64,000 bases of DNA. It comes from Buchnera aphidicola (Greenidea ficicola). GTDB taxonomy: Bacteria; Pseudomonadota; Gammaproteobacteria; Enterobacterales; Enterobacteriaceae. The position numbers and the translations under genes were made by a program. The stretch spans positions 84,287 to 148,286 of the forward strand of contig NZ_CP135012.1 in assembly GCF_039386055.1 (NCBI RefSeq). The letters run 5' to 3'. How positions within the stretch are numbered: position 1 is the stretch's first letter; each line of letters starts with the position of its first letter. The notes under the pieces were generated by a model that was given only the letters and a program-made list of their open reading frames with translations, did not search any database and had not been told where the DNA came from. Positions 11,334 through 15,099 of this stretch are shown here, piece by piece.

Positions 11334-14138
11334 TTATAAAAATTTTCTTTTTTCTCCTAAACCAAATAAATTTAAAATACATCTTTTGCATATTTTGTTT
11401 TTATTTTTAAAAATTATTATTTTTTTTACATAATTCCAACATCTTTGACATTTTTTTCCGTTGTTTTTTTTAATAATAATTTTTAATTTTTTTATATTTT
11501 TAGAATGAATTGCATTTTTTGGAGCTTGTTCAAATTTTTTAATTTTAACATTGGATACAATAAATAAAAATTTTTTTTCTTTTTTGAATTTTTGTATTTT
11601 TTTTTTAATATTTTTATTTGTATATAATATTATTGAAGCTTCTAGAGAACTTTTTATTTTTTTTTTGTTTCTATAAATTTCTATTATTTTATTTATTTCA
11701 TTTTTAATTAATATAATTTTTTTCCAAAATTTATTATTATTTTTTTTTTTTTTAATGAAATTTTTTAAAAACCATTTTTCTGTAAATATATTTTTTTTAT
11801 TTTTTTTTTTTTGTAAATATTTCCAAATTTCTTCTGATGTAAAAGATAAAATAGGTGATATTAATCTTACTATAACATTTAATATATAAAATATAGCTTT
11901 TTGACAACTATATCTAGAATTATTTTTTATATTTAATGTATATTGTCTATCTTTTATAATATCTAAATAAAATGAACTTAATTTTATTGAAATAAAATTC
12001 ATTAAATGTTTAATAATTTTATGAAATTGATATTTATTATATAATAATATTATTTTTTTTTGTAATTTTTTAGTTTCTAAAATAATCCATTTGTCTATTT
12101 TTACCATTTTGTTTTCATTAATAGAATTTTTTTTATTGTTAAAATATTTTAAGTTTGCTATTAAAAATCTTATTGTGTTTCTTATTTTTTTGTAATTTGT
12201 AATAGATTGTTTTATTATTTTTTTAGATATTGTTATATCATTACAGTAATTAGTGGATGCTATTAATAAACGTAATACATCTGCTCCATAATTTTCAATA
12301 ATAAAATTTGGACTTATTGCATTGTTAGATGATTTGGACATTTTATATCCTTTTTCATCTATAGTAAATCCATGAGTTAAAACTTTTTTATAAGGAGCTT
12401 TATTATTTACTATAGTTGATATTATTAAAGAAGACATAAACCAACCTCTATATTGATCTGATCCTTCTAAATATATATCTCCTATATTTTTATTTTTTTT
12501 TGATTTTAGATTATATATATATAACGATCCAGATTCAAACCATACATCTAATACATCTTTTATTTTTTTATATTTTTTTTTATTTATTTTAATGATATTT
12601 TTACTCCACCATTTTTCTGTTCCTTTTTTTTTTACATATTTTGCTATTTTTTTTGTTAATTTTTCAGTTTTTGGGTGTATTTTTCCTGTTTTTTTATTTA
12701 TAAAAATTGTTAATGGTATTCCCCATTTTCTTTGTCTTGAAATACACCAATCTGGTCTATTTTCAAGCATTTTTTTCATTTTTTCATATCCCCAATGAGG
12801 GATCCAGGTAATATTTTTAATCAATTTTAAACATTTTTTTCTAAGTTTATTTTTATTCATGTTGATAAACCATTGTATTGTTGCTCGGAATATAATAGGA
12901 AATTTATGTCTCCAACAGTGTGGGTAATTATGTTTAATATAATGTAAATTTATTATTTTTTTATTTTTTATTAAAATATCTATTATTATTTTATTTATTT
13001 TAAGTATATTTTTTTTATTAATTAAAGGGTGAATATTTTTATTTATTTTTCCACAATTTTTTATTAAATTTTTTGTATTTATTTTATATTTTTTACATAT
13101 TATAAAATCTTCTTGACCGTGATCTGGTGAAGTATGAACTGCTCCAGTACCTATTTTTTCAGTTACATATTTAGATAGAATTATTGGTATATAATTTTTT
13201 AAAAATGGGTGTATGAATTTTATAAATTCTAATTTTTTTCCTATGATAGTAGATAAAATAGTCCATTTTTTAATTCTTAATTTCTTCATTGTTTTTTTAA
13301 GAACTTTTTTTGCTAAAATTATTGTATATAATTTTGTTTTTATTAATTGATATTTAATATTTGGATTAATTGCAATTCCAACGTTAGAAGGTAAAGTCCA
13401 AGGTGTTGTTGTCCATATAATAATATTAATAATATTTATTTTTTTATTTTTTATTTTAAATATTTTTTTTATTTTTTCTTTATTTTTTGCTTGAAATAAA
13501 ACTATGATTCCAGGAGAGTATTTGTTAAAATATTCTATTTCTGCTTCTGCTAATGACGATTTACATTTTATACACCAATATACTGGTTTATAATCTTTGT
13601 ATAAATATCCTTTTTTTATTATTTTTGATAAAGTTAAAATTATATTCGATTGATTATTAAAACTCATTGTTAAATTTGGTTTATGCCATTTTCCTATTAT
13701 TCCTAATTTAATAAAATCTTCTTTTTGTTTTTTTATATTTTTTTTTGCGTATTTTTTGCAATATTTTCTAAATTTTTTATCAGATATTTTTTTTTTTTTA
13801 TTTTTATTTAAATAAAGTTCTATTTTATGTTCAATAGGTAAACCGTGACAATCCCATGATGGTTTATATAATGAATTAAAACCTGAAAGATTTTTAGATT
13901 TTATTATAATATCTTTTAATATTTTATTTAAAGCATGACCAATGTGTATGTTTCCATTTGCGTATGGTGGACCATCATATAAAATAAAAGATTTTTTTTT
14001 TTTGTTTTTTTTTTTTATTTTTTGGTAAATTTTTTCTTTTAACCATTTTTTTATTATTTTTGGTTCTTTTTTAATTAAGTTTCCTTTCATAGAAAATTTT
14101 GTTTTTGGTAAATTTAAGGTTTTTTTAATGTTATTCAT
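11334..14138 (-). CDS. ileS: Isoleucyl-tRNA synthetase
   Basis: Class I synthetase charging tRNA-Ile with proofreading. It shows HIGH (65-68, in GNIHIGHALN), the CP1 editing domain (WTTTPWTLPSN and TSPDHGQEDF), KMSKS in DEKGYKMSKSSNN near residue 600 and the C-terminal zinc site with two Cys pairs (CQRC and CKRC) followed by GEKRKF. Length 934 versus 938. The isoleucine-rich proteome makes this a heavily used enzyme. It overlaps ribF upstream by 8 bp, as part of ribF-ileS-dapB-folA on the minus strand. Confidence 0.97.
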   Translation of the reverse strand: MNNIKKTLNLPKTKFSMKGNLIKKEPKIIKKWLKEKIYQKIKKKNKKKKSFILYDGPPYANGNIHIGHALNKILKDIIIKSKNLSGFNSLYKPSWDCHGLPIEHKIELYLNKNKKKKISDKKFRKYCKKYAKKNIKKQKEDFIKLGIIGKWHKPNLTMSFNNQSNIILTLSKIIKKGYLYKDYKPVYWCIKCKSSLAEAEIEYFNKYSPGIIVLFQAKNKEKIKKIFKIKNKKINIINIIIWTTTPWTLPSNVGIAINPNIKYQLIKTKLYTIILAKKVLKKTMKKLRIKKWTILSTIIGKKLEFIKFIHPFLKNYIPIILSKYVTEKIGTGAVHTSPDHGQEDFIICKKYKINTKNLIKNCGKINKNIHPLINKKNILKINKIIIDILIKNKKIINLHYIKHNYPHCWRHKFPIIFRATIQWFINMNKNKLRKKCLKLIKNITWIPHWGYEKMKKMLENRPDWCISRQRKWGIPLTIFINKKTGKIHPKTEKLTKKIAKYVKKKGTEKWWSKNIIKINKKKYKKIKDVLDVWFESGSLYIYNLKSKKNKNIGDIYLEGSDQYRGWFMSSLIISTIVNNKAPYKKVLTHGFTIDEKGYKMSKSSNNAISPNFIIENYGADVLRLLIASTNYCNDITISKKIIKQSITNYKKIRNTIRFLIANLKYFNNKKNSINENKMVKIDKWIILETKKLQKKIILLYNKYQFHKIIKHLMNFISIKLSSFYLDIIKDRQYTLNIKNNSRYSCQKAIFYILNVIVRLISPILSFTSEEIWKYLQKKKNKKNIFTEKWFLKNFIKKKKNNNKFWKKIILIKNEINKIIEIYRNKKKIKSSLEASIILYTNKNIKKKIQKFKKEKKFLFIVSNVKIKKFEQAPKNAIHSKNIKKLKIIIKKNNGKKCQRCWNYVKKIIIFKNKNKICKRCILNLFGLGEKRKFL

Positions 14139-15099
14139 ATTTTTCTCTTTTAATATTATTTTTATTTAAATGGTTAATTTTAAAGTATGAACAAGCAATC
14201 ATAATATCTTTTTTAATTTGTTTTTTTAATTTTTTTTTTGAATTAAATTTTATTTCATTTCTTATTTTTTTTAATATTATTATTTCTATTTTTTTTTTAT
14301 ATGTTTTAATGTTTATGTTTAATATATGTGCTTTAATATGTTTTATATTTCCTTTAAAAGTAGATTTTTTTTCGATATTTATAATTGAAAAAATATTTTT
14401 TTTTTTTATTCCTTTTATTTTTGTTATATAAACTCCATTTAATAATGATTTATTTTTATATAATAAGATATTAGCTTTTGGAAATCTTGTTTTTTTTACA
14501 ATATTTAATTCATGAATTATGTTTCTATGAATACTATAATTTCTTCCAAGCATTGATTTTACTAATTTAAATTTATTTTTTTTAATATTTTTTCTTATTA
14601 AAGTACTACTTATTCTTTTATTATTTTTTTTAAATGGTTTATTTATATAAAGATTAAATAATTTTTTTTTATTTGCTTTTTTAAGATGTTTAATATTTCC
14701 TTTTTTTTTATAACCAAATTTAAAATCATTTCCTACAAATAAAAAATTTATTTTTAATTTTTTAACTAATATTTTTTTTATAAATTTTTTTGGTTTTATA
14801 GTAGAAAATTTTTTGTTAAATTTTATACATAAAATAGCATCTATTTTAAATTTTGATAAATATTTTATTTTTTCACAAAATTTATTTATACGTATTGGAG
14901 CAATATTTGGAGATAAAAATTCTAATGGTTGTGGTTCAAATAACATAATTATAATAGGTTTTTTTTTTTTTTTTTTTTTTTTTATAATTTTATTTATTAA
15001 ATTTTTATGACCTAAATGAACGCCATCAAAATTACCAATAGTTAAAAAAGAACCAAAATGTTTTTTTTTTATATTATGTAAACCACGTATTATTTGCAT
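14131..15099 (-). CDS. ribF: Bifunctional riboflavin kinase/FAD synthetase, kinase domain degenerate
   Basis: RibF normally makes FMN from riboflavin, then FAD. The N-terminal FMN adenylyltransferase half looks intact: IGNFDGVHLGH (21-31), MLFEPQPLEFL, VGNDFKFG and ISSTLIR (163-169). The C-terminal riboflavin kinase half keeps its outline and the ILKKIRNEIKF tail but has lost key residues. The PTAN motif reads PKAN (K208), the catalytic Glu of the LEVHLLD block is K256, and the NIGTRPT block reads NIEKKST. Eight lysines (40-47) come from a 25-nt A tract. Length 322 versus 313. I infer FAD synthesis kept, FMN synthesis doubtful. Confidence 0.92.
   Translation of the reverse strand: MQIIRGLHNIKKKHFGSFLTIGNFDGVHLGHKNLINKIIKKKKKKKKPIIIMLFEPQPLEFLSPNIAPIRINKFCEKIKYLSKFKIDAILCIKFNKKFSTIKPKKFIKKILVKKLKINFLFVGNDFKFGYKKKGNIKHLKKANKKKLFNLYINKPFKKNNKRISSTLIRKNIKKNKFKLVKSMLGRNYSIHRNIIHELNIVKKTRFPKANILLYKNKSLLNGVYITKIKGIKKKNIFSIINIEKKSTFKGNIKHIKAHILNINIKTYKKKIEIIILKKIRNEIKFNSKKKLKKQIKKDIMIACSYFKINHLNKNNIKREKYE

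Follow-up and report, generated by a model that had tools for sequence, protein, structure and literature searches.

The ribF gene and its kinase residues

The window analysed here, 64,000 nucleotides of Buchnera aphidicola (Greenidea ficicola) (contig NZ_CP135012.1, positions 84,287 to 148,286), carries on its minus strand a ribF gene (14131..15099, 322 amino acids), named for the bifunctional riboflavin kinase/flavin adenine dinucleotide (FAD) synthetase. The gene is a single open frame without internal stop, set within an enclosing open frame of 328 codons, and it lies between ileS and rpsT, as at intact Buchnera-like loci, its final 8 bp being shared with the downstream ileS (11334..14138, minus). 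In this protein the catalytic residues of the riboflavin kinase are lost, the N-terminal flavin mononucleotide (FMN) adenylyltransferase (FMNAT) half is constrained, and the C-terminal half is accelerated yet preserves its frame.

The FMNAT half (residues 1-184; 14548..15099, minus) is unchanged at all 34 of its near-invariant positions. Its nucleotide-binding motif GNFDGVHLGH (residues 22-31; 15007..15036, minus) and the ISSTLIR motif (residues 163-169; 14593..14613, minus) are unchanged, so that the FMNAT motifs of bifunctional RibF (GxFDGxHxGH and SSTxxR) are both present, and the Pfam model PF06574 (FAD_syn) matches residues 12-166 with 168.5 bits. The kinase domain (residues 185-306; 14182..14547, minus) is changed at 6 of 18 near-invariant positions and its frame is open; PF01687 (Flavokinase) matches residues 184-305 with 83.7 bits, covering positions 1-123 of the 124 in the model. 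The two-domain, full-length architecture of bifunctional RibF is thus kept; its PT[A/L/I]N motif and catalytic Glu are not. PTAN reads PKAN (residues 207-210; 14470..14481, minus), with T208K encoded by AAA and N210 retained, the NIGTRPT block reads NIEKKST (residues 241-247; 14359..14379, minus; including G243E, codon GAA, and P246S, codon TCT), and the catalytic-base position, E268 in Corynebacterium ammoniagenes, is a Lys (E256K; 14332..14334, minus, codon AAA). These residues, as well as the intact FMNAT motifs, are all as a preliminary description of this DNA had given them. Two further glycines outside its list are also lost: G192R (14524..14526, minus) and, within the GFPTAN motif, G205R (14485..14487, minus), both with codon AGA.

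In a phmmer alignment, K208, N210 and K256 face T208, N210 and E268 of the C. ammoniagenes FAD synthetase (4uze). We reject a displacement of the catalytic residues: none appears in the phmmer or MAFFT alignments, and neither places an intact catalytic Thr or Glu elsewhere in the domain, an arrangement that the preliminary description had allowed for. Its statement that the Thr and Asn of PTAN and this Glu are needed for kinase activity agrees with published mutants: in the C. ammoniagenes enzyme, Ala or Asp at T208, N210 or E268 is reported to block FMN formation while conversion of FMN to FAD is retained (PMC2573891).

Constraint in the two halves of RibF

We scored columns conserved in at least 95% of 166 other full-length RibFs (RibFs shorter than 290 residues, matches starting past residue 7, duplicates and the protein's own genome being excluded). 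Greenidea RibF is changed at 0/34 such columns in the N half and at 6/18 in the C half (Fisher p = 0.0009), the six being G192R, G205R, T208K, G243E, P246S and E256K. Only the Buchnera of Taiwanaphis exceeds it in the kinase half, with 8/18 (and 4/34 on the N-terminal side); after these two, no RibF has more than 2 changes there. The same comparison against 39 reduced-genome symbionts (Greenidea and Taiwanaphis omitted), an alignment the preliminary description had called for, gives 0/24 and 3/17, with the catalytic Thr and Glu among the changes (G192R, T208K, E256K); in two further symbionts 3/20 C-half columns are changed, none of them catalytic. Because the counts drop with this narrower reference and two other symbionts come as high, the identity of the changed residues outweighs their number. 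The neighbouring ileS, on the same strand, served as a control: 8/221 conserved positions are changed in Greenidea and 0 to 13 in other genomes, judged against its own set of 30 IleS proteins, of which L207 probably comes from outside Buchnera.

Branch lengths fitted separately for the two halves, on one topology of 41 RibF tips, show the same asymmetry. The Greenidea N-half tip (0.394) falls within the range of the ten other Buchnera tips (0.110-0.789), whereas its C-half tip (1.266) is the longest of the 41, Taiwanaphis being second (1.258). Among tips whose N branch exceeds 0.1, Greenidea also has the highest normalised C/N ratio (2.44); higher ratios occur on the tiny branches of four tips below that limit (L143, L035, L036, L144). 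Domain models trained on 165 other RibFs, without Greenidea and Taiwanaphis, give Greenidea 231 bits for FMNAT vs 202-241 in eight intact Buchnera-like RibFs, and 100 bits for the kinase vs 127-166, most of the intact Buchnera scores coming from training members. The Pfam kinase model is free of this overlap and places Greenidea (85.9 bits) and Taiwanaphis (74.2 bits) lowest of 15 genomes above cut-off. Conserved columns, branch lengths and domain scores together give good support to the preliminary proposal that RibF has probably lost its kinase activity and kept FAD synthetase.

Mutation bias alone can be rejected as the cause. The replaced ribF codons do look like the product of one mutation each toward A or T, if the ancestral codons are as assumed, and third positions in the 29 window genes are strand-asymmetric (59% A in minus-strand genes, 54% T in plus-strand genes), the minus-strand genes being Lys-rich, up to 28% in folA. 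However, Lys is about as frequent in one half of RibF as in the other (26.6% and 23.7%), which means that A-bias alone does not account for the asymmetry between them; conserved sites are lost only in the kinase half, and ileS stands at 8/221. Nor does ribF look like a pseudogene: there is no internal stop or frame loss over the open frame, and relaxed change does not extend across the whole gene, being confined to the C-terminal half. In a neutral simulation, the kinase half stayed stop-free in 1.0% of 3000 runs at 30 missense changes and in none at 50; the runs started from the present kinase half with the third-position composition of ribF, the true number of changes not being known. We read the kinase half as a domain that has probably lost catalysis while its fold is retained.

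Flavin supply and the fate of RibF in Buchnera

The Greenidea Buchnera genome amounts to 404,628 bases in 3 contigs (395,344 in contig 1). It retains two users of FMN: nuoF, a full-length gene in the window for the FMN-dependent subunit of complex I (22351..23634, plus; TIGR01959, 607 bits against a cut-off of 558.65), and AroC. Two users of FAD, dihydrolipoyl dehydrogenase and acetolactate synthase, are retained just outside the window. The demand of complex I for FMN, which the preliminary description took to persist, is borne out by the full-length NuoF. On the supply side, no match to ribB (PF00926), ribE (PF00677) or the C-terminal domain of ribD (PF01872) was found in the genome, ribA not being searched, and ribH is a remnant below cut-off (G000:C1:309563-309733; model positions 2-57 of 139). 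A second kinase elsewhere in the genome is rejected because a PF01687 search of it returns only ribF (85.9 bits, cut-off 19.6). If the RibF kinase is indeed dead, this single match means that FMN must come from outside, and the import proposed in the preliminary description is a fair inference from it and from the retention of NuoF and AroC. The genome is the smallest Buchnera genome described in PMC11193766. Its contig 2 is a leucine plasmid, nearest to that of the Buchnera of Mollitrichosiphum nigrofasciatum, also Greenideinae (78% DNA identity); the plasmid has two repA-like open frames, both on the minus strand (1549-2046, 165 amino acids; 2525-3367, 280 amino acids), named from the features annotated under the plasmid match.

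We consider it probable that Greenidea RibF is a working FMN adenylyltransferase fused to a catalytically dead kinase domain and fed by imported FMN. Ready-made FMN would enter the cell from the aphid cytosol or from a companion symbiont. NuoF and AroC would use it as such, and RibF would turn part of it, through its N-terminal half, into the FAD required by enzymes such as dihydrolipoyl dehydrogenase and acetolactate synthase. The dead kinase domain would be kept at full length as a scaffold because, in the bacterial enzyme taken apart to test this, the adenylyltransferase half did not function alone: the C. ammoniagenes protein is reported to yield an active kinase when its C-terminal domain is isolated, but to show no reaction with the N-terminal domain by itself (PMC2573891). 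Residues of the kinase module are also reported to influence the FMNAT site within the trimer (PMC5428420). The enzyme activities, the import of FMN and the scaffold role are what we infer from the gene. As for the source, Serratia symbiotica was reported in 215/215 Greenideinae samples (PMC8901875), which suggests that this partner may supply riboflavin. The preliminary description had invoked such a companion, and the missing ribB, ribD and ribE agree with it; the FMN could just as well come from the flavin nucleotides of the aphid host itself.

A tie between RibF loss and a partner is not seen in related genomes. In 392 genomes of the family, a RibF match is present in 339 and missing from 53; the 53 have no kinase domain above the Pfam cut-off, one of them (G397) giving a weak match (E = 0.008). 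We scored the rib genes of 28 Buchnera-like genomes, hand-chosen rather than random, counting RibF as absent when there was no open RibF and no PF01687 match above cut-off (short fragments persist in G261 and G335). Of the 28, 7 have a full, open RibF (Aphis helianthi, Artemisaphis, Formosaphis, Melaphis, Anoecia, G336 and G018) and 16 have no open RibF. In Schlechtendalia a frameshift interrupts the gene near codon 40; in Taiwanaphis RibF is open and decaying, in Greenidea it is apparently kinase-dead, and in two others it is reduced to the kinase. All three of ribH, ribE and ribD are present in 19/28, and 11 of those 19 are without an open RibF (for example Baizongia, Therioaphis, Sarucallis, Shivaphis, Nipponaphis and Mindarus), which argues that the loss of RibF is not tied to riboflavin from a companion. 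Conversely, Formosaphis and Anoecia have a full RibF without ribH, ribE and ribD. AroC, an FMN user, is present in 12/12 genomes searched, 5 of them without an open RibF. These patterns indicate that making riboflavin is uncoupled from making FMN and FAD, which in turn implies uptake of flavin nucleotides in many of these genomes, with or without a riboflavin-making partner; such uptake looks common among Buchnera and not tied to a companion symbiont. Separately, four ~300-kb genomes of the same family (genus g140; G159, G269, G342, G403) have 16-20 in-frame TGA codons in ileS, which suggests that TGA is read there as an amino acid.

Alternatively, the whole of ribF could be in early decay, the kinase having gone first, the adenylyltransferase being dispensable as well and the pseudogene still open because it is recent. 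The 16/28 genomes without open RibF favour this scenario, since they include genomes of ~0.4 Mb (Cinara, Ceratovacuna, Therioaphis, Shivaphis), and so does the Buchnera of Taiwanaphis decaspermi (L173), in which a full-length, open RibF has lost conserved residues in both halves (4/34, 8/18); ribH, ribE and ribD were not found in that genome. It is also favoured by a slippage-prone run of 25 A in Greenidea ribF (14959..14983, minus), formed by the last base of the Ile39 codon and eight Lys codons (40-47), which sits close to the place where the ribF genes of the Schlechtendalia chinensis Buchnera (L191) and of G316 (L194) are frameshifted, near codon 40 and beside Lys codons. In these two genes both RibF domains are otherwise open, and rescue of the frame by slippage is possible. 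Yet the unchanged N columns (0/34), the ordinary N branch and a reading frame that is still whole and free of stops, although stops appear quickly in sequence of this kind, make early decay of the whole gene unlikely.

Several observations weigh against a kinase-dead, FMN-fed RibF. Pfam still scores the protein as RibF with both domains, and the NCBIfam model NF004163 for the bifunctional riboflavin kinase/FAD synthetase gives 320.7 bits against a cut-off of 315; 12/18 kinase columns are retained, N210 among them; the contrast with the narrow reference (0/24 vs 3/17) is weak as a count; out-of-frame products are possible from the poly(A) run; and with a single Greenidea genome, none other of the genus being available, the lesions cannot be dated. 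In addition, PTLK, PTLN, PTIN and KTAN variants of PTAN are supposed to be active in genomes without another kinase (PMC2972280). These variants, the retained columns and a PF01687 score well above cut-off (85.9 vs 19.6 bits) would fit a RibF that is still bifunctional, its kinase acting through other residues or a relaxed site. This we regard as very unlikely given a Lys both at the metal-site Thr and at the base position and a C-half branch that is the longest of 41; moreover, the base Glu is termed invariant in kinases as well as FAD synthetases, and even its replacement by Asp (E268D) is reported to leave only traces of FAD formed from riboflavin (PMC2573891). An assembly or polishing error in the kinase domain is hardly credible: the genome comes from Pilon-corrected metagenomic short reads (PMC11193766) and homopolymers are numerous, but errors of this kind would more likely have shifted the frame than have placed six in-frame substitutions at conserved sites, all of them in the same half of the protein.

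A working adenylyltransferase joined to a dead kinase would have its mirror image in two relatives. In the Buchnera of Thelaxes californica (G150) and Pentalonia nigronervosa (G392), the FMNAT half is a stop-ridden remnant with no recognisable open frame, and a kinase open reading frame is left: 159 codons in Thelaxes (L208:4355-4834, minus), with 18/18 conserved kinase columns kept, and 139 codons in Pentalonia (L187:4358-4777, minus), with 15/18 kept (G185E, G192S and G243S changed). PTAN and the catalytic Glu are retained in both, their Pfam kinase scores (121.9 and 110.6 bits) lie within the 106-141 bits of RibFs with an intact kinase, and both genomes retain ribH, ribE and ribD. The Thelaxes domain has no ATG upstream of it, which leaves its translation start uncertain, although a GTG is present. 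Judging from these sequences, the two frames seem to be putative stand-alone kinases, the opposite loss to that in Greenidea. The isolated-domain results in C. ammoniagenes fit the pattern: the apparently kinase-dead case keeps its full length, and the FMNAT-dead cases keep only a kinase frame. A broader and more tentative proposal is that Buchnera lineages have dismantled RibF both ways, FMN and FAD being shared separately with uptake routes of their own, and that folding sets the asymmetry, the kinase domain being autonomous and the adenylyltransferase domain not. Flavin cofactors both partly and fully finished are, this suggests, obtained from outside.

Comparison with known FAD synthetases

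Single-activity forms are not new in this enzyme family: kinase-less FAD synthetases are already known from plastids and, as FADS-type II (FAD synthetase type II), from some bacteria (PMC2972280). A kinase-dead or split RibF in Buchnera was not reported among the matches listed by our literature search, which lay outside most subscription journals and all supplementary tables, nor in the portions covered of PMC6908640, PMC9672956, PMC11193766, PMC11188193, PMC3213167, PMC3246468, PMC9317480 and PMC7245037. What we did not find in the literature searched, and take as new, is a full-length, apparently kinase-dead symbiont RibF together with the reciprocal kinase-only form in its relatives. If this is correct, nature has here taken a bifunctional enzyme apart, and a single bacterial group shows intermediates both ways. 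Two questions would then be open to test: which of the flavin nucleotides pass between aphid and Buchnera, and whether extreme genome reduction can leave a dead domain in place as a scaffold. There is also a practical consequence: NF004163, a curated model, passes an apparently kinase-dead protein as bifunctional, and a metabolic model that relied on names of this sort would credit this cell with FMN synthesis in error.

Greenidea RibF shares with the bifunctional RibF, or type I FAD synthetase (PF06574 and PF01687; TIGR00083, NF004163), its domains, length and adenylyltransferase motifs, and differs in the kinase, where the NIGTRPT block and two glycines of motifs have been lost along with the catalytic Thr and Glu. 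The chloroplast enzymes AtRibF1 and AtRibF2 are, like it, bacterial-type FAD synthetases without PTAN, and FAD synthetase activity but undetectable kinase activity is reported for them (PMC2972280); in these plant proteins the Glu is still present and the C-terminal module is reduced by 40-60 residues, whereas Greenidea RibF keeps the length and has lost the Glu. FADS-type II enzymes (Mycoplasma conjunctivae, Treponema pallidum) likewise keep the N-terminal FMNAT and have possibly lost the C-terminal activity (PMC2972280), with C-terminal domains that are described as shorter and non-conserved, unlike the full-length domain of Greenidea that PF01687 still recognises. Greenidea RibF therefore has the FMNAT motifs and the missing kinase motif of a kinase-less FAD synthetase without the shortened C-terminal module. 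The remnants in Thelaxes and Pentalonia resemble it in that RibF has seemingly been cut to a single activity within the same bacterial group, but there the other half is kept and ribH, ribE and ribD are present. Finally, the T208, N210 and E268 mutants of the C. ammoniagenes enzyme (PMC2573891) are laboratory equivalents of the Greenidea state, reached there by single changes to Ala or Asp and here by natural Lys replacements.

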